64,000 nucleotides of DNA from Candidatus Tectimicrobiota bacterium (GTDB lineage Bacteria; Tectomicrobia; Entotheonellia; Entotheonellales; Entotheonellaceae). The stretch lies in NCBI GenBank assembly GCA_026005175.1, contig BPKO01000004.1:124001-188000 (forward strand). The letters run 5' to 3'. The notes beneath the pieces are model-generated. The model worked only from the letters and a program-made list of their open reading frames with translations. It was not told the origin of the DNA and made no database searches. Below are positions 19,626-32,513 of the stretch, piece after piece. The position numbers and the translations under genes were made by a program. Each line of letters starts with the position of its first letter. Position 1 is the first letter of the stretch.

Positions 19626-20227
19626 CAGCGCTGGCGACTCCCCGGCTTGCTCAAAGGCCGCCCCTGGCGGCACAGCGGGCAATCCTGGGGGGAATAGACC
19701 GGCACCTCCAGAGTGGCCAGGGCGTGCAGGGGCACCGCAAACCGCACCTGCCCGCCGCTGCGGTCAAGGATGGCCCCCACGCCAACCGCCTCGCCCCCGT
19801 GCCGCGCCACCAGCGCGAGCACCTCGCGCACCGAACCCCCGGTGGTGATCACGTCTTCCACCACCAGCACGCGCTCTCCGGGCTGCAATTCCAGCCCCCG
19901 GCGCAGGGTCATCACCCCCGCTTCGCGCTCCCCAAACAGGGCGCGGGCGCCCAGGGCGCGCGCCACCTCGTGGCCAATGAGGATGCCGCCCAGGGCCGGA
20001 GAGACCACGGCGCGCACCGCAGCCCCGGCAAAGCGCGCCGCCAGCCAGCGCCCCAGCGCCTCGGCGTGCGGCGGGTACTGCAGCAGGCGGGCGCACTGCA
20101 CGTAGCGGTCGCTGTGCAGGCCCGAAGAGAGCAGGAAGTGACCCTCGAGCAGGGCGCCGGTGGTCCGCAGCAGGTGCAAGACTTGCGCTGCCACCGCTTC
20201 AGGCGCCGCCGCGTCCCGCTCAGGCAC
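19625..20227 (-). CDS. pyrE: Orotate phosphoribosyltransferase
   Basis: 200 residues from a GTG start at 20227 that overlaps the tatC stop (GGTGCCTGA). Converts orotate and PRPP to OMP. The PRPP-binding loop [20 protein letters not shown] is the type I PRTase signature; [20 protein letters not shown] and [20 protein letters not shown] are the substrate-site segments. A C-terminal extension [20 protein letters not shown] carries a CxxC pair common in this subgroup. Translation is likely coupled to tatC. Confidence 0.95.
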
Positions 20228-20953
20228 CGTCTTGCTCCCGCTGCTGCGCGCGGCGCTGCTCGATGCGCCGCGCCAGGAGGATGCTGATGCCATAAAGAAA
20301 CAGGGTGGGCACCGCCATGAACGTCTGTGACACCACGTCGGGCGGGGTGAGAATGGCGGCCACGATGAAAGTGAGCACCACGGCGTAGCGAAAGTGCTTG
20401 ATCAGGGTGCGCGAGGAGAGAAGCTCCAGCTGGACGAGGAAAAATCACCACCATGGGCAGCTGGAAGACGACGCCAAAGGCGATCATCAGGCGCACGCAG
20501 AACGAGACGTAGTAGCCAACCGAGAGCTGCGCTTTGATGTCGGCACTCGAAAAGCTGAGAAGAAAGTCAATAATGATGGGCAGCAGGAAGTAAAACATCA
20601 TGCCGCCCAGGTAGAAGAGCACCGTCGAGCCGATAAGAAACGGCACCGTGTATTTTTTTTCGTGCTCGAGCAGGCCCGGGGCGACAAACTTCCAGAGCTG
20701 GTGCAGCACCACCGGCAAGGCAAGAAAAAGGCCGGCCAGGAAGCTGATTTTGAGGTAGGTGAGAAAGGCCTCGGCGGGGGCGATCATTTGCAGCGGCACC
20801 GTCACCCGCTTGCCAAACAGCGCCGGAGGGGGACTGCAGGGCGGCGATGATGTAATCTGACAGCGCGTAGCAGATAGAAAAGCCGACGGCAATGGCGAGG
20901 ACGCTGGCCAGCAGGCGGGAGCGCAGCTCGGCCAGGTGCGCCGTCAGGGGCAT
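20220..20953 (-). CDS. tatC: Sec-independent protein translocase TatC (two apparent frameshifts)
   Basis: Polytopic receptor of the twin-arginine translocase. Read from ATG 20953 (MPLTAHLAELRSRLLASVLA; a TTG at 20965 overlapping the tatB stop is an alternative). The frame breaks at a run of five Gs near 20825 (…IIAALQSP to ALFGKRVTVPLQMIAPAEAF) and at a run of five As near 20443 (…VVFQLPMVVIF to FLVQLELLSSRTLIKHF), ending [17 protein letters not shown]. Restoring one base at each run gives a full-length TatC of about 245 residues with six TM segments (FLAGLFLALPVVLHQLWKFV, YGISILLARR). Sequencing error is the simplest explanation, because an isolated tatB with broken tatC would be odd. Confidence 0.88.
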
Positions 20954-20961
20954 GGGGGGTG

Positions 20962-21246
20962 TCAACCATGGACGTCGCGCTCCTTGATCGCCGTCTGCAC
21001 GTCTACCAAGTCGGCGACGCGGCTGCGGATCTCCTGGGCCAGGGCGCGGTTGCGCTGCCCCTCTTCCTGCCGCTCCAGGGCGGCGATGTCGCGCTGGATG
21101 GTGCGCTGGAACTCTTCGCTGGCCCGCCGGAGCTGCGCGTAGGCACGCCCGAGCATGCGCGCCACTTCCGGCAGACGCTGTGGCCCAGAAACCAGCAGGG
21201 CCAGGATGAAGATCACAATGAGCTCGGGCAGGCCAATGCCAAACAT
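20962..21246 (-). CDS. tatB: Sec-independent translocase TatA/TatB protein
   Basis: 94 residues from ATG 21246: MFGIGLPELIVIFILALLVS, then GPQRLPEVARMLGRAYAQLR and a long amphipathic, charged helix (EEFQRTIQRDIAALERQEEG). One N-terminal TM with the polar residue Glu at position 8 and a hinge GP; length and position before tatC favour TatB over TatA. Forms the substrate receptor with TatC. First gene of tatB-tatC-pyrE-acyP. Confidence 0.9.
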   Translation of the reverse strand: MFGIGLPELIVIFILALLVSGPQRLPEVARMLGRAYAQLRRASEEFQRTIQRDIAALERQEEGQRNRALAQEIRSRVADLVDVQTAIKERDVHG

Positions 21247-21427: not shown

Positions 21428-22563
21428 ATGTGCGCAAGCGAAAGACGGACCCTGTCCCTGCTTGCCGCTCTGGCCGGGGCAATCGTGCTGGCCCTGGTCC
21501 CGGCTGCGGCGGCGCAGAAGATTACCTGGAAAATGCAGAGCACCTGGTCGGCAGGAGACTTCCACCACCAGAACCCCACTTTTCTGGTCAACGCGATCAA
21601 AGAGATGTCGGGGGGACGTCCTCAACATCGAGCTGTTGCCTGCTGGGGCGGTGGTGGCGCCCTTTGAGGTGCTTGACGCCGTCAACCGCGGCGTGCTGGA
21701 CGCCGGCCACGCCTGGCCCGGCTACTGGACGGGCAAGCACCCGGCGGCCACCCTCTTTGCCAGCGCCGCCGGCGGTCCCTTCGGGATGAACGCCGAGGAC
21801 TTCCTGGCCTGGATGTACCGCGGCGGGGGGCTGGAGCTCTACCACGAACTCCTCCAGAAGGAGCTGAAGCTCAACGTCGTGGCTTTCCCCACCTTCGGTG
21901 AGGTGCCCGAGCCCCTGGGCTGGTTTCCGCGGCCCATCAAGACCGTCGAAGAGTTCAAAGGGCTCAAGTTTCGCGCCGCGGGCATGGCCGCCGAGGTGTT
22001 CAAAGAAATCGGCATGACGGTGGTGACGCTGCCCGGAGGCCGAGATCATCCCCGCGCTGGAGCGCGGCATCATCGACGCTGCCGAGTACAGCGAGCCCAG
22101 CTCCGACCTGAGCATCGGCTTTCCCGAGATCCGCAAGTTCTACCACTTGCCGGGCATCCACCAGCCCACGGGGATCATGGAGTTCCTCATCAACAAGGAT
22201 CGCTGGGACGCCCTGCCCGAGGACTTAAAGGCGGTGGTGCGCTACGCGTCGATGGCCGCGGCCCTGGAGTTCACGCTCAAGATCCGGGACCTCAACAGCA
22301 GCGACCTCAAGAAAATCGTGGAAGAGAAAAAAGTGCAGGTCATCGAGACGCCGCGCGAGATCCTCGTCGAGGTGCTCAAAGCCTGGGACAAGGTGGCGGC
22401 GCGGCACGCCCAGGCCAATCCTTTCTTCAAGAAAGTGCTGGAGTCGCAGCGCGCCTGGGCCGAGCGCCTGGTGCCTTACCGGCGGGTGGCCGATCCCCCC
22501 TATGACCTGGCCGCCGACTACTACTGGGGCGAGATCAACCCCTACAAGGTAAGGAAGCCCTAA
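21428..22563 (+). CDS. TRAP transporter substrate-binding protein DctP, copy 1 (two frameshifts)
   Basis: Periplasmic solute receptor. Signal peptide SLLAALAGAIVLALVPAAAA, then QKITWKMQSTWSAGDFHHQN. The frame slips at a run of six Gs near 21610 (KEMSGG to DVLNIELLPAGAVVAPFEV) and near 22037 (VVTLPGG to EIIPALERGIIDAAEYSEP); with both repaired the product is about 378 residues and ends PPYDLAADYYWGEINPYK. DctP hallmarks: GLKFRAAGMAAEVFKEIG, the substrate-site arginine in that segment, and GIIDAAEYSEP. No DctQ/DctM membrane subunits are nearby, so it is an orphan receptor. It faces the VOC-solA-DUF1177-aroM-pepE operon and is similar to the receptor at 57432-58562. Confidence 0.88.
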
Positions 22564-22663: not shown

Positions 22664-23398
22664 TCAAGCGGAAGCAGGCGCAGAGGTCCAGAGAAACGCC
22701 AGGGGGTCGTGGGGAGCGTAGTCGGCAGGCACCTGCCCCTTGCAGAAGACCGTAAGCTTGTGCGGCCCCAGAAGCTGGATCTGCGTGCCTTCGATGCGCA
22801 GCAGGCTGCCCTCGCGCAGCCCCACCACGTAAACGCCGGGGTGGAGCTCTACGAACTCGGCCAGCCGCTCGGCCCGCGTCTCGCCGGCATAGCCCGGCAG
22901 GGTGGCGTCGGTGTAGTGGGGGTTGATCTGAAAGGGCACCAGGCCCAGGGCCCTGAGGCTGGGCGGCGCGACGATGGGCATGTCGTTGGTGGTCTTGATC
23001 GTCGGGCAGGCGACATTGGCCCCGGCGCTCCAGCCAAGATAAGGCACGCCCGCCGCCACGCGCTGGCGAATAGGCTCGAGCAGCCCGGCGGCGTACAGGC
23101 GCTGCAGCAAGACGAAAGTATTGCCCCCGCCCACCACCAGCGCCTCAGCCTCGCCCACCGCTGCCTGAGGGTCGGCCACCTCGTGCAGCGAGGTTACGGC
23201 ATACCCCAGCGGCGCCAGCGCCGCGCGCACCCGCTCTGCGTACGCTGCCGGCGTGAGGCGCACCGCGGCAAAAGGCACAAAGAGCACGCGCTTGACGCCT
23301 TGGCCCAGGAAGTCCTGGATCGCCGCCCTGGCGTGCTCCAGGTAGCCGCCACCGTAGTTGGTCGAGTTGCTCAGCAGGAGGAGGCGCTTTTCTGCCAT
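22664..23398 (-). CDS. pepE: Alpha-aspartyl dipeptidase PepE (peptidase family S51)
   Basis: 244 residues from ATG 23398 (MAEKRLLLLSNSTNYGGGYL). Serine peptidase that splits Asp-X dipeptides in the cytoplasm. Family motifs: LVVGGGNTFVLLQRLYAAGL, the nucleophile elbow VPYLGWSAGANVACPTIKTT, NDMPIVAPPSLRALGLVPFQ and the active-site INPHYTD. Length agrees with E. coli PepE (229). Last gene of the five-gene minus-strand operon; 16 bases separate it from aroM. Co-occurrence with AroM and DUF1177 suggests a role in degrading small aspartyl/isoaspartyl or cyclic peptides, which is inference. Confidence 0.92.
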   Translation of the reverse strand: MAEKRLLLLSNSTNYGGGYLEHARAAIQDFLGQGVKRVLFVPFAAVRLTPAAYAERVRAALAPLGYAVTSLHEVADPQAAVGEAEALVVGGGNTFVLLQRLYAAGLLEPIRQRVAAGVPYLGWSAGANVACPTIKTTNDMPIVAPPSLRALGLVPFQINPHYTDATLPGYAGETRAERLAEFVELHPGVYVVGLREGSLLRIEGTQIQLLGPHKLTVFCKGQVPADYAPHDPLAFLWTSAPASA

Positions 23399-23414
23399 TG
23401 GCTTCGGGTCTCCC

Positions 23415-24077
23415 CTACAGCAGCTCGTGCAGGAGGCGCGCCAGAAGGGCGTGGGCAAGAAGCACCGGCACCCCGGTGATGGCCTTGAGGCGCGCTTTCA
23501 TGGCCGCAGTATAGCCAATGCAGTCGAGCACCACCAGGGTGACGCCGGCAGCACGCAGCGCCTCCCCGGCCTGCTCGAGCGCGGCCGGCGCCCCGTAGGG
23601 GGAAGCCGCCACCACCACCGCTTCTACCCCCATGGCCTGCCATTTCTTCTGGGTTTGCAGGCGCTGCGCCGGGCTGGGGGTCAGCACGCCGACTGCGCCC
23701 CGGCCGGCAAGGCTCTGCACCAGCGCGTGCAGGAGAGGCTCGGGCTTGAGCAGCGGCACGCGACTGGCAAGGCGAGGAAAGGAGCCGGTGCAGAGAAGCC
23801 CGATGACGCGTACCCCGCGCGCTTCGAGCTCCTGGATGCGCTGCTCGAGCCGCGGCACGATCTGCTCTCTGGCCACCAGCACTTCCGTGCCGTCGCGCAG
23901 GCGCGTCGCCAGCACGTAGTCCCCCGGCCCCGGGGCCAGGGCCTTGATCTCTTCCAGTGTCAGGCCATCGAGTGCCCCCGCTTCCAGCACCGTCACCTGC
24001 GGTCCGAGGATGGCCTGCATTTCCGGCACCACGTCCGCCCGCGGCGCCTGCCCGATGGTCAGCAGTCCGATCTGCAT
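23415..24077 (-). CDS. AroM-family protein
   Basis: 220 residues. Starts MQIGLLTIGQAPRADVVPEM, the characteristic AroM N-terminus. Two cysteines in conserved settings, Cys96 (RVIGLLCTGSF) and Cys186 (VTLVVLDCIGYTAAMK), resemble the catalytic pair of the Asp/Glu/hydantoin racemase superfamily, with GVLTPSPAQRLQTQKKW in the middle. AroM was named for its position next to aroL in enterobacteria but has no demonstrated function. Here it lies 10 bases after DUF1177 and 16 before pepE, so it is transcribed with them. A racemase/isomerase role on an amino-acid derivative is an inference from fold and context. Confidence 0.88.
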   Translation of the reverse strand: MQIGLLTIGQAPRADVVPEMQAILGPQVTVLEAGALDGLTLEEIKALAPGPGDYVLATRLRDGTEVLVAREQIVPRLEQRIQELEARGVRVIGLLCTGSFPRLASRVPLLKPEPLLHALVQSLAGRGAVGVLTPSPAQRLQTQKKWQAMGVEAVVVAASPYGAPAALEQAGEALRAAGVTLVVLDCIGYTAAMKARLKAITGVPVLLAHALLARLLHELL

Positions 24078-24087
24078 GTTTCCTCCC

Positions 24088-25026
24088 TCATGCCTCCTGT
24101 CCCAGCGTTTGCAAGTGCTTCATCGAGCCGTAGCGCCGCACGAGGCGGGCGAATTCCTCGGCATCGTAAAACTGGCAGCGGCCTTCGCCAAAGGCCTTGG
24201 CCACCTCCAGGCAAAAGCGCGCCGCCGCCGCGACATCCTCCAGCTGGTTGGCGCCGGTGGCGCAGCCTGCCACGGGGACCTCGGCGGTGGTGGCCACCCC
24301 CACCACCGGGGCGTCGGTGGCCACCGCGGGCTGCACGATGCTGTTGAGGTGATACAGGCCGTTGCCGTATGGGGTAATGTCCTGCGTGGTCAGGGGAAGC
24401 ACCACCGGGAGCTGGCCGGTGACCTGCTGCAGGATGGTGAGCAGATCCTCGGCCACCCGCAAGATGTAGCCTTCCTTGACCGTGGGGGTGATGGCGATGC
24501 CGCGCCGGTTGAGGATGCGGTTGCCCTTGGTGGCGTCTACAGAGAGGATGGCCTCCATGGCCGCGTCCACCTCGTAGCGGTTCATCACCGCCATCTCTAC
24601 CGGAGACATCATGAACGGCACCGGGTCGTGCGGCCGGATAGGGGCAGCAGGGCAGATATGGGTAGCGATGCGCACGTCGCCAGCCAGCACCTCGCCCTGG
24701 CGCCGCATGTCCGCCAGCTTGAGGGCACAGGTGAGGGCGGCCAGGGCGCCGTCGGCGTCCGAAACCATGCCCCGCACCGCCGGCCGCGCCCCGATGCCGC
24801 CCAGGCGGCCGATGATTCCCAGGGTGGGGGCCTGGCCGCCGGCGCTCTTGCCTGCTGCGCCCGGCACCAGCACTTTGACAAAGTCGGTCTTGCCGGCCTC
24901 CCCGGCCACCGGCTGCACCTCGACGGCGTCCAGCCCGCGGGCAGTGAGCAGCGCCGCCACCGCCTCGCCGCTGGCCCGCGGGCTGTCGAGCAGTTCGTAA
25001 ATCTCCAGCAGCTGCTTGAGCATCAC
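24088..25026 (-). CDS. DUF1177-family protein
   Basis: 312 residues; start MMLKQLLEIYELLDSPRASG. The family has no known activity. Visible conserved blocks: TLGIIGRLGGIGARPAVRG, GDVRIATHICPAAPIRPHDP, VPFMMSPVEMAVMNRYEVDA, LSVDATKGNRILNRRGIAIT and VVGVATTAEVPVAGCATGAN. Several His, Asp and Cys residues in these blocks could bind a metal or form an active site. Soluble, no signal peptide. Located between solA and aroM (gaps of 24 and 10 bases), the partnership usual for this family as far as I know. I cannot assign a reaction. Confidence 0.85.
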   Translation of the reverse strand: MMLKQLLEIYELLDSPRASGEAVAALLTARGLDAVEVQPVAGEAGKTDFVKVLVPGAAGKSAGGQAPTLGIIGRLGGIGARPAVRGMVSDADGALAALTCALKLADMRRQGEVLAGDVRIATHICPAAPIRPHDPVPFMMSPVEMAVMNRYEVDAAMEAILSVDATKGNRILNRRGIAITPTVKEGYILRVAEDLLTILQQVTGQLPVVLPLTTQDITPYGNGLYHLNSIVQPAVATDAPVVGVATTAEVPVAGCATGANQLEDVAAAARFCLEVAKAFGEGRCQFYDAEEFARLVRRYGSMKHLQTLGQEA

Positions 25027-25050
25027 GCCTCTCCAGAGGCCGCCCGCCGG

Positions 25051-26181
25051 CTACCCAAAGCGCGCCAGGCGAAAGCGCGACAGGTCGTGGCGCGAATCGC
25101 CGCGATGGGCCAGCTCGGCCAGGATTTCCCCTACCACGCTGCAAAACTTGAAGCCGTGGCCCGAAAAGCCCGCTGCCAGGATCACCTGCGGCCACTGCGG
25201 ATGTACGTCAAGGATAAAGTGCTCGTCGGGGCTGTTGGTGAACAGGCAGGTCTTGAGCGTCAGGGTGGGGCCGGCTGCCTCGGGGAAGTAGCGCTGCGTG
25301 AAGGCCCGCAGCACCTCCTCGTCTTGGCGCTCGAGCGCCTCGCGGTCCAGGGTGTCGGGGTCGACCTGCTGGCCCAGGTGGTGGTAGCGGCCCACCTTGA
25401 AGCCCGGCACCCCGTAGACAGGGCAGCCGTAGTAGCGGCCTTCTTCCACCAGGACGTTGAAGACGGGGAACACGCCGGGGTGAAAGAGGGCGGGACGCCG
25501 GGGCTGGAACCACGCCAGCACCTGCCGCTCGGCCACCGCCAGCCCCGCGAGCTGCGGCACTAGCTTGCCCGCCCAGGCCCCGGCGGTCACCACCAGCCGC
25601 GCCGCCAAGTAGTCGCCGCGGTCAGTGCGCACCCGCACGCCCTCGCCAGCCGGCTCCCAGGCCTCGACCCGCTCGCAGCCGTGCACCGTGGCCCCCAGCT
25701 CCAGGGCCGCCATCACGTGGGCCACAACGCAGCGCTCGGCAAGCAGAAAGCCGCCATCGGGCTGGTAGACGGCCCAGGCGTCGGCAGGCAGCTGATAGCC
25801 GGGAAAGCGCCGCTGCACCTCGCGCGCTTCTAGCACCTCGTGCGGCAGGGCGTGCAGCTCGCACGAGCGCCGGGAGCCGGCAAAGACCTCGCTGTCGGCC
25901 GGGCCGGCGTCAATAGAGCCGGTAATGAACAGCAGCCGCTCGCCAACCGTGTGCTCGAGCTGCCGCCACAGCTCGTAAGCGCGCCGTAGCAGCGGCACGT
26001 AGGAAGGGTGCTCGTAGTAGGCCAGGCGGATGATGCGGGTGACGCCGTGCGAAGAGCCCATGGTGTGAGGAATACCGTAACGCTCCAGGCCCCAAACGCG
26101 CAGCCCGCGGCGCGCCAGGTGGTAAACCGCGGCGCTGCCCATCCCCCCCACCCCGAGGACGATGGCGTCGTAGCGCTCCAT
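25051..26181 (-). CDS. solA: SolA-like FAD-dependent amine oxidase (monomeric sarcosine oxidase / N-methyltryptophan oxidase family)
   Basis: 376 residues from ATG 26181 (MERYDAIVLGVGGMGSAAVY), whose GxGxxG binds the FAD ADP moiety. Typical blocks: IPHTMGSSHGVTRIIRLAYY, YVPLLRRAYELWRQLEHTVG, LVVTAGAWAGKLVPQLAG, and LKTCLFTNSPDEHFILDVHP, where the Cys of KTC(L/M)(Y/F)T is the covalent flavin attachment site of this family. Oxidises N-methyl or secondary amino acids (sarcosine, N-methyltryptophan, pipecolate) with release of H2O2. The substrate in this operon is unknown; the neighbours suggest an unusual amino acid or peptide-derived amine. Confidence 0.9.
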   Translation of the reverse strand: MERYDAIVLGVGGMGSAAVYHLARRGLRVWGLERYGIPHTMGSSHGVTRIIRLAYYEHPSYVPLLRRAYELWRQLEHTVGERLLFITGSIDAGPADSEVFAGSRRSCELHALPHEVLEAREVQRRFPGYQLPADAWAVYQPDGGFLLAERCVVAHVMAALELGATVHGCERVEAWEPAGEGVRVRTDRGDYLAARLVVTAGAWAGKLVPQLAGLAVAERQVLAWFQPRRPALFHPGVFPVFNVLVEEGRYYGCPVYGVPGFKVGRYHHLGQQVDPDTLDREALERQDEEVLRAFTQRYFPEAAGPTLTLKTCLFTNSPDEHFILDVHPQWPQVILAAGFSGHGFKFCSVVGEILAELAHRGDSRHDLSRFRLARFG

Positions 26182-26227
26182 GGGGCTCTCCTCTGCCGGC
26201 CTTGCCACCCCGCGCCGAAGACGGCCC

Positions 26228-26620
26228 TTACGGCGCCGCCGGCTGGCGCCGGGCATAGCTCACCGTGAGCACTTCCCAGACGTGGCCGTCGGCGTCTGTC
26301 CAGTAGAAGTTGCGCCCGCCCAGGCGCGTGTTGAGCCGCATGTCGTCGGGGCCCTGCGGCGTGCTGCGGTACTTGATGCCCGCTGCCTGCACGCGCGCCA
26401 GGATCTGGTCAAACTCCGCCTCGCTCACGTGAAAGCAGTAGTGGTGGCTCTCAAACGTCTCGCGCCGGGCAAAGTCCAGGGTCAGGGTGTCGTTCACGTA
26501 CACGGGGGTAAAGGGGCCCTGCGCCTCATCCCACGGCACGCCCAGCACCTCGGCCAGGGCACGCGCCGCTGCGACGGGATCGCGCGAAGGAACGATGAGA
26601 TGGTCGAGCTGGATGGTCAT
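26228..26620 (-). CDS. VOC-superfamily (glyoxalase/dioxygenase-like) protein
   Basis: 130 residues from ATG 26620 (MTIQLDHLIVPSRDPVAAAR). One beta-alpha-beta-beta-beta repeat pair with His7 (LDHLIVP), FHVSEAEFDQILARV, and NFYWTDADGHVWEVLTVSYA with the C-terminal Glu of the metal site. Cytoplasmic single-domain VOC protein; substrate cannot be told. It is the first gene of the operon with solA, DUF1177, aroM and pepE. A fragment of its 5' end recurs at about 30018-30066. Confidence 0.88.
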   Translation of the reverse strand: MTIQLDHLIVPSRDPVAAARALAEVLGVPWDEAQGPFTPVYVNDTLTLDFARRETFESHHYCFHVSEAEFDQILARVQAAGIKYRSTPQGPDDMRLNTRLGGRNFYWTDADGHVWEVLTVSYARRQPAAP

Positions 26621-26874
26621 GGCACACCTCCTGGGGCGCCGCTTGCGGGCGCCCGCCGGGCCATCCTCTGAAGCCCCCGGTGGTCCGCCTCCCTCCACCG
26701 GATGTCCAGGGCCAGGGCGTCCTCTAAAGCTTCCAGCAATTCCCGGGCAAAGGCAGGATACCGCAACGCTTTCTTCCTGACAATACTGGCCAGCGCATAA
26801 GCCAGCAGGGCGATCGCCTCGGCACGCCAGGGCTCCTGGAAGGCCACGGCGCCCAGGAGAGAAGCATCAACCAC
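26617..26874 (-). pseudogene. Decayed VapC toxin (copy 1 of duplicated vapBC)
   Basis: 85 residues: MVDASLLGAVAFQEPWRAEA, then ALLAYALASIVRKKALRYPA, FARELLEALEDALALDIRW, ending with unrelated sequence. Against the longer copy at 28906-29454 it lacks the segment EGMELYAPTLLAYE (about 38 bases), which removes the second acidic residue, and everything after DHRG including the third and fourth acidic residues, so it cannot form a PIN active site. Its 3' end runs into the VOC gene. Confidence 0.85.
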
Positions 26875-26879
26875 CCTGG

Positions 26880-27093
26880 GGCATCCCGGTCTTCCTGCAC
26901 CATGGCCACCGACTCATCCCCTGTGCGGACGCCCCGCTCCCGGACCCTCTGAACCAGCTCCTGGAGGCTCAGCTTCGGGGAAGCCAGGGCCTCCTCCAGG
27001 ATAGTCATCAGTTCCCCCTGCAGGGAACGGTGGTGGCGCCTCGCCCTCTGTCTGAGCTTCTCTGCCAGCTCGTCGGGGACGTTCTTGCATGGA
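26880..27093 (-). pseudogene. VapB antitoxin remnant (copy 1), start lost
   Basis: The frame reads NVPDELAEKLRQRARRHHRS, LQGELMTILEEALASPKLSL, QELVQRVRERGVRTGDESVA, MVQEDRD: a FitA/ribbon-helix-helix-type antitoxin nearly identical to the intact copy at 29435-29677. The first residues (MPVTLSIK in the intact copy) are replaced at about 27088 by unrelated DNA, and the only nearby ATG is out of frame. A two-base loss near 26882 also shifts the junction with vapC. Confidence 0.85.
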
Positions 27094-27260
27094 GATGACC
27101 TGCCCCCTAAAACTGCCGTGAAGCTTAGTCGATGCCCCTTGCTGGCTTCACCTCTGCTCTGTAATGCTGACCGCGGGCGCTCCCAGCAATCGGGTTGCCT
27201 TCCCTCCTGGGCAAGCGCCACTGGCTGCGAAGGCGTGAACCTGGCAGGGCGGGCGCCTAA
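27094..27260. other. Junction DNA in shuffled island
   Basis: No gene. Bases about 27174-27203 (GCGGGCGCTCCCAG…TCGGGTTGCC) resemble 29777-29806, the region upstream of the intact vapB copy, so part of this stretch is also duplicated upstream DNA of vapBC. Confidence 0.5.
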
Positions 27261-27587
27261 GGGCCACGCGCCCCACTGCCCTACCAGCGCTCAAGGGTGC
27301 GGTACTGCAGGTGGGCTGTGCGATGCGCTCTTCGCCGGCCAGATCGGCAATGGTGCACGCCACCTTGCAGATGCGGTCACAGGCGCGGGCGCTCAAGCCA
27401 AAGTGGCGCATGGCCTGCGCCAGCAGCTGCTCTCCGGCGCTGTCCAGCGCGCAGTAGCGCCGGATTTCGCGCACCCCCATGGCGGCGTTGTGGGGCAGCG
27501 CCTCGCCAAAGCGCGCCGGAAAGGTCGAGTGGTGGGGCGCGCGAAAGGGGTGGGTGGCCACCAGCGCCTTTTCGCAGCTGAGCAACT
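27261..27587 (-). pseudogene. comM fragment with internal deletion
   Basis: 27261 to about 27516 closely matches the 3' end of the intact comM gene (from 30975): on the minus strand it reads [53 protein letters not shown]. It is then joined to about 60 bases matching comM near 31680-31743 ([20 protein letters not shown]), with the roughly 450 bases between them in comM missing. A deletion of 10-15 bases near 27306 disrupts the C-terminal [11 protein letters not shown]. Not functional. Confidence 0.85.
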
Positions 27588-27771
27588 CGGCGTCCGGACG
27601 GATACGGTGACCAACTGGGAACTCGGCCGATCCCGTCCTGCCCTCCGGTACCGGCCGGAGCTTCTCGCCTTCCTGGGAGACAGTCGATGGCTTCCGGTCC
27701 CCCAGGCCGACCACCCACCTACGCTTGGTGAAGCCCTCAAGGAAATGCATCGGGAAAAGCGAGAGCCTTAA
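27583..27771 (+). pseudogene. XRE-type HTH protein fragment
   Basis: Plus-strand frame [55 protein letters not shown], stop at 27771. This resembles the recognition-helix half of XRE/Cro-type regulators found next to mobile elements (…TVxxWExGRxxP…YRPxIxxFLG…TLGExL). The N-terminal half is replaced by the comM fragment. Confidence 0.65.
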
Positions 27772-28905: not shown

Positions 28906-29454
28906 TCAAACTGGCTCCCCGCCCTGCGATGGCTTGGCCGCCTTCTGTTTGCCGCCACCCTTGTTGGCACCGCCGTAGCGTTGCTCAACGACCGCGCTAC
29001 CGTCCGCTGCCATACTGCCGCGACGGCCCCGCCCGCGGCCAGATAGCAGCCAGCGTGCGCCCTCCCTGGCAGCCTGGCCTCCTGACTCCTGGGGCACCCT
29101 CTGAAGCACCTGGTCGAAAGTCACCAAGGGGATGCCCAGGGCACGGGCTAGATACAGATAGCTGGCGTCATAGGTGCTTAGACCCGTGGCTAGGGAGAGC
29201 GCCACCACACCCCGGTGGTCCACCTCCATCCACCGGATGTCCAGGGCCAGGGCGTCCGCCAAGGCTTCCAGCAGTTCCCGGGCAAAGGCAGGATACCGCA
29301 ACGCTTTCTTCCTGGCAATGCTGGCCAGCTCATAGGCCAGCAGGGTGGGGGCGTATAGCTCCATACCCTCCAGCAGGGCGACCGCCTCGGCCGACCTGGG
29401 CTCCTGGAAGGCCACCGCTCCCAGGAGGGAAGCGTCAACCACCCTGGCGGGCAT
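28906..29454 (-). CDS. VapC-family PIN toxin (copy 2), with run-on C-terminus
   Basis: 182 residues. PIN core: ARVVDASLLGAVAFQEP (Asp7), PTLLAYELASIARKKALRYP (Glu42), LSTYDASYLYLARALGIPLV (Asp96), TFDQVLQRVP (Asp114). The domain ends near residue 122; the last 60 residues (Gly, Arg, Ala-rich) look like translation into non-coding DNA, so the original stop was probably lost, perhaps when the 3' flank was replaced. It overlaps vapB by 20 bases. All four acidic residues are present, so the toxin may be active. Confidence 0.85.
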   Translation of the reverse strand: MPARVVDASLLGAVAFQEPRSAEAVALLEGMELYAPTLLAYELASIARKKALRYPAFARELLEALADALALDIRWMEVDHRGVVALSLATGLSTYDASYLYLARALGIPLVTFDQVLQRVPQESGGQAAREGARWLLSGRGRGRRGSMAADGSAVVEQRYGGANKGGGKQKAAKPSQGGEPV

Positions 29455-29677
29455 CCCGGTCCTCCCTTACCATGGCCACCGATTCATCCTCTGTACGGAC
29501 GCCCCGCTCCCGGACCCTCTGGACCAGCTCCTGGAGGCTCAGCTTCGGAGAAGCCAGGGCCTCCTCCAGGATAGTCATCAGTTCCCCCTGCAGGGAACGG
29601 TGGTGGCGCCTCGCCCTCTGTCTGAGCTTCTCTACCAGCTCGTCGGGGACGTTCTTGATAGAGAGGGTGACCGGCAT
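29435..29677 (-). CDS. VapB/FitA-type antitoxin (copy 2)
   Basis: 80 residues from ATG 29677: MPVTLSIKNVPDELVEKLRQ, RARRHHRSLQGELMTILEEA, the ribbon-helix-helix FitA-like DNA-binding domain, then LQELVQRVRERGVRTEDESV and a short tail. Its 3' end overlaps vapC. A decayed near-identical copy lies at 26880-27093. Confidence 0.92.
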   Translation of the reverse strand: MPVTLSIKNVPDELVEKLRQRARRHHRSLQGELMTILEEALASPKLSLQELVQRVRERGVRTEDESVAMVREDRDARQGG

Positions 29678-29937
29678 AGCGTATCCTCCATTATGGATAT
29701 GTTTTCCGGTAAGGAGAAGCAGGGAAAGTTCGCCGATGACAAGGCCCGCAAAGCCCTGGTGCAGCCTCTGCCCTGCGGGCGCTCCCAGCGCTCGGGTTGC
29801 CCTCCCTGAGCCCACCGCGCACCTTTTCAAGGGCAGCCCGTCCCCCCGGGAGCCGGCTGCATTCGAGAGCCGTGGTCGGCATGTGGTGGCAGCTCATGCC
29901 ATGGGTGGGGGGATAATCAGCCCGGGCACGGGTTCCT
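29678..29937. other. Upstream region of vapBC copy 2
   Basis: About 260 bases without a gene. The minus-strand promoter/operator of vapBC copy 2 must lie at the left end (a palindromic A/T-rich stretch ATCCTCCATTATGGATAT at about 29685-29702). Bases 29777-29806 resemble 27174-27203. Confidence 0.45.
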
Positions 29938-30066
29938 CGACCCGACTGCAAGAGGGGCACAACAGCCCTCTACCCCGGCGCCGGATGTAGGCCGCCCAGG
30001 CCTGTCCGGCCCGGGCGCACGCCGCCGCGACGGGATCGCGCGAAGCAACGACGAGATAGTCGAGCT
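29938..30066 (-). pseudogene. Composite of a zinc-ribbon PIN fragment and a VOC-gene fragment
   Basis: 29938-30017 is a diverged copy of 27966-28045 (middle of the zinc-ribbon PIN gene; shared core GGATGTAGGCCGCCCAGGCC versus GGGTGTAGGCCGCCCAGGCC). It continues directly into 30018-30066, which resembles 26567-26615, the 5' part of the VOC gene (GACGGGATCGCGCGAAG…GAGAT.GTCGAGCTG). The two parents are separated by about 1.4 kb elsewhere in the island. Non-coding. Confidence 0.75.
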
Positions 30067-30075
30067 GAAAAGACG

Positions 30076-30786
30076 TTATTCCGTGGCCAGCGTCTGTCGC
30101 CGTTTGCGGTGGTATTCGAACAACTTCATGTTGGCCGCGGCGATGGTCTGGGCCTCCTCGGCAATTCTGGGCAGGTCTCTTCCAGGAACAGCCACATACA
30201 GTTCGTCCTCACCCACGTCGGTATAGACGCGGTTTCCGATACATCCCGTACTGGCCACAACGCCGTGGGCGAGGGCGGCAGGAAGCGCCATACACGTCGG
30301 GCGGCCGAAAAGCGGAACCTGTGTCCCAACCCCTGCGCGCAAGGCCGCCTCTTGTAGGAGCATCATGCGTCCGGGCCGACCCGAAAAGAGCACAACGTCC
30401 GGCTCGAGCGGCGTATCCCCAAGAGGCGCGTAGATCACGACGCCAGGTGGCTGAGGCAAGCGCAGGAGCCCGGGAACCTCGTCCCCCTTGAGGTAGCCGA
30501 TCCCGACCATGAAGGAGAGCGTCTGGTCGAGCTCTTGAGCGCGGTCCTGTGGGAGGGAGATGTGGTGGGTATAGCAGCCAATCGGGCAGTTGTAATGGTC
30601 GCTGGGAACGGTATAGAAGGTCCGCCCCCCTGCGGCAATCCGCCAGAAGCTGCACCCTGAAGGCTCTGCGCCGGTGAACTTGGGTACCCCCGCAGGGGGG
30701 AGCTCCCGGAACGAAACCGCCACTGGGCGTCGCTGAAGGTTAAGGAGCTCAGAGAGCCGCTGCTCTATGAGCCGATAGTCCGTCAT
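30076..30786 (-). CDS. DUF169-family protein
   Basis: 236 residues from ATG 30786 (MTDYRLIEQRLSELLNLQRR, PVAVSFRELPPAGVPKF). DUF169 proteins carry several conserved cysteines; here SGCSFWRIAAGGRTFYTV, YNCPIGCYTHH, FGRPTCMALPAAL and VASTGCIGNRVYTDVGEDEL are visible, with CxxxC and isolated Cys that could hold a metal or Fe-S centre. No signal peptide. Function unknown in the literature known to me. It stands alone at the right side of the shuffled island; base composition is slightly less GC-rich than that of the core genes. Confidence 0.87.
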   Translation of the reverse strand: MTDYRLIEQRLSELLNLQRRPVAVSFRELPPAGVPKFTGAEPSGCSFWRIAAGGRTFYTVPSDHYNCPIGCYTHHISLPQDRAQELDQTLSFMVGIGYLKGDEVPGLLRLPQPPGVVIYAPLGDTPLEPDVVLFSGRPGRMMLLQEAALRAGVGTQVPLFGRPTCMALPAALAHGVVASTGCIGNRVYTDVGEDELYVAVPGRDLPRIAEEAQTIAAANMKLFEYHRKRRQTLATE

Positions 30787-30992
30787 CTTAGCGCCGCCCT
30801 CCTCGACCGCAATCCCGAAGCACCAGCGCTCGCGCCGGGCCTTGCCGTGTGTCACAGATTTACCCGACTTCGCCCGCAGCCGTCAACCAACCTCCGGTTG
30901 CCACTTGCCAAATCCGAGGACAAAATAGCAGCCCTTTCTGGCAGATTATCGGCGGTGGCAGTGCGGGCACTTGAGGGCCACGCCCCACTGCC

Positions 30993-32513
30993 CTACCAGC
31001 GCTCAAGGGTGCGGTACTGAATGGCTTCGGCCAGGTGGGCTGCTGCGATGCGCTCTTCGCCGGCCAGATCGGCAATGGTGCGCGCCACCTTGCAGATGCG
31101 GTCACAGGCGCGGGCACTCAAGCCAAAGTGGCGCATGGCCTGCGCCAGCAGCTGCTCCCCGGCGCTGTCCAGCTTGCAGTAGCGCCGGATTTCGCGCACC
31201 CCCATGGCGGCGTTGTGGGGCAGCGCGCCGCCAAAGCGCGCCCGCTGCCGTGCGCGCGCCGCGTTGACGCGGGCGCGGATGGCGGCCGAGGGCTCGCCTG
31301 GCGCCGCGGTGCGCAGCTCGGCATAAGGCACCGGCGGCACTTCCACATGCAGGTCGATGCGGTCGAGCAGGGGACCGGAGAGGCGGGCGCGGTAGCGCTG
31401 CAGCTGCTGCGTCGAGCAAAGGCACGTGCGCTGCGGGTCGCCGCGCCAGCCACAGGGACAGGGATTCATTGCCGCCACCAGCATGAAGCGCGCCGGGAAG
31501 GTGACGCTAAGCGCCGCCCGCGCAATGGTGACCTGGGCGTCTTCGAGGGGCTGGCGCAGCACTTCCAGGGTGCTGCGGCGAAACTCCGGTAGCTCGTCAA
31601 GGAACAAGACGCCGTTGTGCGCCAGGCTCACCTCGCCCGGAGTGGGCATGGCGCCGCCGCCCACCAGCCCAGCGTCAGAAGTTGAGTGGTGGGGCGCGCG
31701 AAAAGGGCGGGTGGCCACCAGCGCCTTTTCGCGGCTGAGCAACCCGGCTACGCTGTGGATCTTCGAGGTCTCGATGGCTTCTTCCAGGGTCATGTCGGGC
31801 AGGATGGAGGGCAGGCGCCGCGCCATCAAGGACTTGCCCGCTCCAGGCGGGCCGATGAGAAGCACATTGTGGCCACCGGCTGCTGCTACTTCTAGGGCCC
31901 GCTTGACGTGCGCCTGCCCCCGCACGTCGGCAAAGTCCTCCTCGTAGACGGCCGTGCGGCGAAACAGCGCCGCCACGTCGCACACCGTTGGCGTGAGGGT
32001 CTCGCTGCCGGTAAAAAAGCCCACGGCCTGCGCCAGGGTGGCCACGCCAAACACCGGCGCCACGCCGCTTACGGCCGCCTCGGTGGCGTTTTCCGCCGGC
32101 ACCAGGAGGCCGGCCACCTCGGCCTGGCGCGCGGCAAAGCTCATCGGCATCACCCCGGCCACCGCTTTTACCCGCCCGTCTAGCGACAGCTCCCCCAGCA
32201 CCAGGTAGCGGTGCAGGGCGTCGCCGGGCAAGTAGCCGGCAGCGCGCAGAATGCCCAGGGCAATGGGCAAGTCAAAGGCGGTGCCTTCCTTGCGCAGGTG
32301 GGCCGGCGCCAGGTTGACGGTGATGCGCTTGAGGGGAAAGGGAAAGCCGCTGTTGGCCAGCGCCGCTTTGACCCGCTCGCGGCTTTCGCGAATGGCGGCG
32401 TCAGGCAGGCCCACGGTGGTAAACGTGGGCAAGCCGGACGCCAGGTCGACTTCGACTTCTACCAGATGGGCCTCGACGCCCAGCAGCGTGCTGCTCAGGA
32501 CCTTGGCCAGCAC
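30993..32513 (-). CDS. comM: ComM/YifB-family Mg-chelatase-like AAA+ ATPase
   Basis: 506 residues, full length. Hexameric helicase that extends branch migration during natural transformation. Order: N-terminal Lon-like domain ([40 protein letters not shown]), Walker A at about 220 ([20 protein letters not shown]), Walker B ([20 protein letters not shown]), the four-Cys NPCPCGW…TCLCS motif and the C-terminal Mg-chelatase domain ([20 protein letters not shown]). Pieces of this gene are found as a decayed fragment at 27261-27587. Its presence hints at, but does not prove, competence for DNA uptake. Confidence 0.95.

Follow-up and report, generated by a model that had tools for sequence, protein, structure and literature searches.

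The 64,000-nucleotide stretch of Candidatus Tectimicrobiota bacterium analysed here (contig BPKO01000004.1, positions 124,001 to 188,000; referred to below as the window) carries five closely spaced minus-strand genes, which encode, in order of transcription, a vicinal oxygen chelate (VOC)-fold protein, a SolA-like oxidase, a DUF1177 protein, AroM and PepE. We consider, with a probability of about one half, that the core of this locus, DUF1177-AroM-PepE, is a cassette that breaks down small peptides or cyclic amides after their import. On our best reading, it represents a shortened form of an operon type that is widespread and consists of a peptide or cyclic-amide importer, DUF917, DUF1177, AroM, an Asp/Glu/hydantoin-type racemase and a peptidase (M29, M20 or PepE), often with a regulator of the IclR or PucR type. 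The evidence obtained by computation comprises gene linkage, two predicted folds, conserved cysteines in AroM and intact sequence motifs in PepE and SolA.

Genomic recurrence of DUF1177, AroM and PepE

With the DUF1177 protein as query, species-representative genomes yielded 563 relatives. The 80 best-matching loci were kept and, together with six plasmid loci, made up a set of 86, many of which lie near contig ends. AroM was present in 63 of the 86 loci, covering many bacterial and archaeal phyla. It was situated downstream of DUF1177 on the same strand in 54 loci, and the two genes were separated by no more than 100 bases in 37. Within 7 kb, we counted AroM in 60 loci, DUF917 (now S-Me-THD in Pfam) in 33, an M29-like peptidase in 33, an Asp/Glu racemase in 27, OPT transporters in 27, peptide-type ABC permeases in 21, IclR in 17, PucR in 16, M20 peptidases in 13 and NCS1-type permeases in 13. 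PepE was found in ten loci (nine within 7 kb) and hydantoinase A in five. The original prediction had named recurrence of DUF1177, AroM and PepE with amino acid or peptide transporters as support; DUF1177 and AroM are indeed recurrent neighbours, with PepE in a subset of loci and OPT or dipeptide ABC transporters alongside.

In order to avoid reliance on the best-scoring loci, 398 evenly drawn Bacillota genomes were also searched. DUF1177 was detected in 46 and a clear AroM in 41. The overlap amounted to 36 genomes, in 28 of which the two genes lay within 5 kb of each other (Fisher p 1.3e-36, a statistic that ignores the relatedness of the genomes). In four Brevibacillus genomes, AroM is missing from the first DUF1177 locus but present elsewhere, and in the three of these whose AroM region was read, a second DUF1177 gene directly precedes AroM, behind OPT and DUF917. 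The pairwise distances among DUF1177 and among AroM proteins were correlated (r 0.69, reached by none of 2000 permutations), a result that would be expected from co-inheritance of the two genes, but shared descent would also produce it.

The loci fall into at least four contexts. One is OPT-DUF917-DUF1177-AroM-M29 with a racemase (Firmicutes, Synergistetes, spirochaetes and Thermococcus), another is dipeptide ABC-DUF1177-M20-IclR without AroM (Brevibacillus, Lysinibacillus and Alkalihalobacillus), and a third is NCS1-type permease-DUF1177-AroM (Aminicenantes and B38). The fourth, OPT-DUF1177-AroM-PepE-racemase, occurs on Sodalis and Klebsiella plasmids and in Serratia, and contains the three-gene order of the window. 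DUF1177 is thus the element shared by all four contexts. It is usually accompanied by AroM, and the peptidase is an exchangeable component.

Some of these loci are located on mobile elements. On a conjugative plasmid of Klebsiella pneumoniae, the cassette IclR-OPT-DUF1177-AroM-PepE-racemase is flanked by transposases. A 44.7-kb plasmid of Paenibacillus guangzhouensis carries an ABC transporter, M20, DUF1177 and AroM adjoining phage tail genes, and the cassette may therefore travel on phage-plasmids. We also noticed a protein of about 275 residues (motif SESKRLIAKAV...LKGGTTVS) with no Pfam match, encoded directly after DUF1177 in nine of the 86 loci (examples are L025:9378-10202, L013, L030, L043, L044, L050 and L064).

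Predicted structures of AroM and DUF1177

AroM is named from the aroL-aroM transcription unit of E. coli and has no assigned function. A search of solved structures by sequence gave nothing useful. The structure predicted from 34 sequences displayed a predicted local distance difference test (pLDDT) value of 97.1 and a predicted template modelling (pTM) score of 0.92. Its best structural match was the hydantoin racemase 2eq5 (Z 17.5 over 189 residues, root-mean-square deviation (rmsd) 2.9 Å), followed by allantoin racemases (AllR 5lg5, Z 16.8), maleate isomerase and Asp/Glu racemases. Among the matches listed, the top 50 were all enzymes of the Asp/Glu racemase superfamily; the list also includes the fungal relative OpaE, as well as solved enzymes of this fold that act on hydantoins and allantoin. 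AroM is thus predicted to adopt the two-domain fold of the Asp/Glu/hydantoin racemases, the outcome that the original prediction had anticipated for a structural model. It had also pointed to two cysteines placed like those of the racemases. Cys96 and Cys186 proved invariant among 39 sequences, with one in each domain, and both align with the two cysteines of PF01177 racemases from the same operons (Prob 95.5, E 1.5e-8).

DUF1177 is strongly conserved. Proteins from bacterial and archaeal phyla are 57-71% identical to that of the window, which suggests a single specific reaction, and the mean column identity among 38 aligned sequences from these phyla is 67%. In this case too, a search of solved structures by sequence alone was of no use, and only fold comparison was informative. 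The predicted structure (pLDDT 88, pTM 0.91) matched the M42 TET aminopeptidase 5ds0 (Z 17.9 over 231 residues, rmsd 3.2 Å) and the Vibrio aminopeptidase 1amp (Z about 17), with similar results for M20 enzymes. Foldseek returned 8svm (M17; E 3.5e-8) and the aminopeptidase of S. griseus (E 5.6e-8). DUF1177 is therefore predicted to have an M28/M42 aminopeptidase fold. Judging from the inferred strand register, the position of the zinc-binding His-x-Asp motif is occupied by R74-L75-G76, in which R74 is kept in 37 and G76 in all 38 of the aligned sequences. Asp90, Asp92, His133, Asp164, Asp216 and His226 are invariant, and His123 is nearly so. We infer that Asp90 and Asp164 may represent the two conserved metal-binding Asp residues of this fold, in which case the remainder of the site would have been rebuilt.

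Organization of the Tectimicrobiota locus

All five genes named in the original prediction are present on the minus strand in the order described (Table 1), and profile searches directly confirmed the families of four of them. The VOC protein had no Pfam match at E<1e-3, but its assignment is backed by solved relatives. The intergenic gaps of 46, 24, 10 and 16 bases are correct provided that DUF1177 starts at the GTG codon at 25026; an alternative ATG is present at 25023.

Table 1. Features of the DUF1177 locus and its surroundings in the window.
Feature	Position	Strand	Basis and remarks
PepE, S51 alpha-aspartyl dipeptidase	22664-23398	-	PF03575, NF003642, solved relatives
AroM (PF07302), predicted two-cysteine racemase/epimerase	23415-24077	-	Profile, predicted fold, Cys96 and Cys186
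DUF1177 (PF06675), predicted aminopeptidase fold of the M28/M42 type, metal motif changed	24088-25026	-	Profile, predicted fold
SolA-like monomeric sarcosine/N-methyl amino acid oxidase	25051-26181	-	Profiles, Cys312; accessory, outside the recurrent cassette
VOC-fold protein, relative of All3014 and ChaP	26228-26620	-	Solved relatives; accessory, outside the recurrent cassette
DctP-type TRAP solute receptor	~21428-22563	+	Profile pieces; convergent with operon, two frameshifts

In profile searches, DUF1177 matched its family with 448 bits and AroM with 278.8 bits. PepE scored 220.7 bits against PF03575 and 306.9 bits against the NCBIfam dipeptidase PepE model (cut-off 156). Among solved structures it matched 7c9b (E 6e-65) and the aspartyl dipeptidase 1fy2 (E 4e-61). 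The Ser of GWSAGAN, the Asp of TTNDMP and the His of INPHY are intact, and the protein is 43-49% identical to nine PepE proteins from DUF1177 loci. The Ser and His motifs are conserved among these and in the solved aspartyl dipeptidases.

The oxidase matched PF01266 and, over its full length, the NCBIfam N-methyl-L-tryptophan oxidase model PRK11259 (506.6 bits, cut-off 257). Monomeric sarcosine oxidases (7exs, E 1e-95) resemble it more closely than does the N-methyltryptophan oxidase of E. coli (2uzz, E 7e-60). The covalent-flavin cysteine that had been noted in the protein is Cys312, which aligns with Cys315 of monomeric sarcosine oxidase. The best solved relative of the VOC protein is All3014 (E 1e-33), and ChaP is also related. 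Neither a SolA-like nor a VOC homologue was encountered beside DUF1177 in any of the 86 loci sampled. In addition, two sister genomes contain SolA orthologues of 61% identity with none of the other four genes nearby, and among the five genomes compared for the phylum, DUF1177, AroM, PepE and VOC occur only in that of the window. We therefore rejected the idea that the five genes form a recurrent system, and the view of them as a single unit was not borne out. These observations fit a scenario in which the cassette was acquired beside a resident SolA gene; alternatively, the sister genomes may have lost it.

The region upstream of the VOC gene (26675-27591) is a patchwork of copies, 81-96% identical, of sequence from 29-32 kb. 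The pieces shared with 29210-31748 (29.2-31.7 kb), a region with antitoxin/toxin-like and ComM/YifB-like genes, are 88-96% identical. This duplicated patchwork suggests a past rearrangement next to the operon. A DUF169 (PF02596) gene is located nearby on the minus strand (30076-30855).

A tripartite ATP-independent periplasmic (TRAP) receptor said to face the operon is present as a DctP-type gene on the plus strand, but it is convergent with the operon and frameshifted, and a link between the two is at most putative. Its reading spans three frames through two shifts, and the profile pieces match in two frames. No genes for TRAP membrane components were seen among the open reading frames beside the receptor, although no profile search was aimed at them. 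The frameshifts may reflect decay or an assembly error. A TatC-like reading (20300-20965) likewise appears to change frame between the open reading frames 20567-20965 and 19912-20892, and the assembly may thus carry indel errors. The receptor should not serve as evidence for the substrate.

Proposed pathway, alternatives and comparison with known systems

From the gene contents and predicted folds we infer the following reactions, their order and the substrate. The cell would take up a small compound of peptide origin whose alpha-carbon is wrong or unstable, candidates being a D- or isoaspartyl dipeptide, a diketopiperazine or a hydantoin-like ring. AroM would then invert the alpha-carbon by proton transfer between Cys96 and Cys186, after which DUF1177, with its M28/M42 scaffold and a rearranged metal or acid-base site, would cleave or open the amide. 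A peptidase specific to each locus, here PepE acting on Asp-X, would free the amino acids. In the Tectimicrobiota bacterium, a secondary or N-methyl amino acid released in this way may also become a substrate of the neighbouring SolA-like oxidase. In the original prediction, the genes had been regarded as a route for the breakdown of an unusual amino acid, an N-methyl amino acid, or an isoaspartyl or cyclic dipeptide after its import. Import followed by catabolism agrees with the recurrence of the core with importers and with the racemase fold of AroM, but the five-gene unit, the N-methyl amino acid and the TRAP receptor do not find the same backing.

Several observations weigh against the cassette as we propose it. 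To our knowledge, neither a substrate nor an activity is known for DUF1177 or AroM. The canonical zinc His-x-Asp is missing from DUF1177, its members match PF06675 and no peptidase family, and an hhalign comparison with a neighbouring M20 peptidase gave no support (Prob 0.4); taking into account the absence of both the motif and sequence similarity to peptidase families, DUF1177 may not be a hydrolase. The loops around the putative active site, with confidence values of 58-73, are also the least confident parts of the model. The cassette of the window is devoid of the DUF917, second racemase and OPT partners, an OPT gene was not found in the genome (the assembly is 77% complete), and the transporter gene near the cassette is the frameshifted one. 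Finally, neither VOC nor SolA recurs as a partner in the loci sampled.

Catabolism of rings of the hydantoin or allantoin type is the main rival, although we regard it as unlikely. AroM would be the racemase, DUF917 or hydantoinase A/B the ring opener and DUF1177 an M20/M28-fold hydrolase carrying out a step like that of N-carbamoyl-amidohydrolases, with peptidases playing a secondary role. The hydantoin and allantoin racemases that lead the structural matches of AroM agree with this, as do, in the 86 loci, NCS1-type permeases (13), the purine-catabolism-type regulator PucR (16), hydantoinase A (5) and DUF917 (33), and related clusters have been interpreted likewise (PMC11055893). However, hydantoinase, DUF917 and NCS1 permease are all absent beside the operon of the window, hydantoinase A/B is a rarer partner than peptidases or transporters of the OPT and dipeptide ABC types, and IclR is as common as PucR. 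A different question is whether DUF1177 has any activity. With the canonical first zinc motif lost in 38 of 38 aligned sequences and the loops near the presumed site modelled at low confidence, it might be a catalytically dead or binding protein, a scaffold or sensor on a peptidase fold, leaving AroM to work with the neighbouring peptidases alone. We consider this improbable; across bacterial and archaeal phyla the alignment columns average 67% identity and include many invariant Asp, His, Asn and Gln residues, a pattern characteristic of an active site and not of decay, and in many loci without AroM, DUF1177 adjoins dipeptide ABC transporters and an M20 peptidase.

It is still less probable that all five genes constitute a single pathway in which SolA is the key oxidase and VOC acts at a later step, and whose substrate is an unusual or N-methyl amino acid taken up from outside. 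The genes share one strand with gaps of 10-46 bases, and the covalent-flavin cysteine and sarcosine-oxidase-type motifs are intact, but the pairing is absent from the 86 loci and the sister genomes retain SolA without the rest. The N-methyl amino acid route is weak, as SolA is its sole basis. Detoxification or repair would be another use of a racemase with an aspartyl peptidase, a combination suited to damaged aspartyl residues. The cassette would then remove racemised, isomerised or cyclised aspartyl peptides, or peptide-nucleotide antibiotics, and would not serve feeding. PepE belongs to family S51, whose MccG clade confers resistance to compounds of the microcin C type (PMC9239234), but the protein of the window is nearest to the PepE aspartyl dipeptidases, and E. 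coli PepE gave no protection against microcin C (PMC9239234). The dedicated importers and IclR or PucR regulators of related loci also favour catabolism, and we hold detoxification or repair to be very unlikely.

Returning to the catabolic cassette, its conserved combination of importers with the predicted folds of AroM (racemase) and DUF1177 (modified aminopeptidase) suggests a short list of candidate substrates, namely D- or isoaspartyl dipeptides, diketopiperazines and hydantoins. If the proposal is correct, a function would be assigned to two families of proteins, and an old fold would be found to carry out new chemistry. That DUF1177 represents a new type of enzyme is a realistic possibility. 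The fuller proposal, that it is a new enzyme class of M28/M42 fold with a rebuilt active site, acting with AroM in an undescribed pathway across Bacteria and Archaea of which the window locus is a PepE-type member, we put forward tentatively, at somewhat short of even odds.

In the literature searched, we found no description of the DUF1177-AroM pairing, the DUF1177 fold or the altered metal motif; the sole match for DUF1177 concerned fungal DUF1996 proteins, and for AroM together with hydantoin one study alone was relevant (PMC11055893). In this 2024 study, non-CDPS (cyclodipeptide synthase) clusters of the cyclodipeptide oxidase type were enriched for AroM, DUF917, hydantoin racemases, OPT/dipeptide transporters and peptidases, and an isomerase activity of AroM was proposed from its racemase-like predicted structure. 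The original prediction knew of no earlier description; within the literature searched, this holds for the DUF1177-AroM pairing, but not for the racemase likeness of AroM or the hydantoin and peptide neighbourhoods. Taken singly, the folds are likewise known already, as are the families to which PepE and SolA belong. The clusters of PMC11055893 share these partners with DUF1177, which is not mentioned there. A link to cyclodipeptide oxidase itself was rejected, as the B subunit (PF19585) is absent from the genome of the window and was found in only two of the 29 DUF1177 genomes searched.

With the Asp/Glu/hydantoin racemase superfamily (PF01177), AroM shares the fold and both cysteines, but it forms a separate Pfam family with about 16% identity. 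DUF1177 shares a fold over about 230 residues with the M28/M42 di-zinc aminopeptidases (5ds0, 1amp and the S. griseus enzyme). Two Asp positions appear to be kept, judging from motif order, whereas His-x-Asp is replaced by Arg-x-Gly, the Glu-Glu motif was not seen and a match to their sequence families is lacking. The SolA protein of the window resembles monomeric sarcosine oxidase and N-methyltryptophan oxidase over its full length and keeps the covalent-flavin cysteine, but its physical pairing with DUF1177 was seen, among the loci sampled, only here. The enterobacterial operons (Sodalis pHS1, Klebsiella pRHB26-C08_2 and Serratia) have the same DUF1177-AroM-PepE order as the window, with gaps of 1-13 bases; their additional genes encode OPT, IclR and a second racemase, whereas those of the window encode SolA and VOC.

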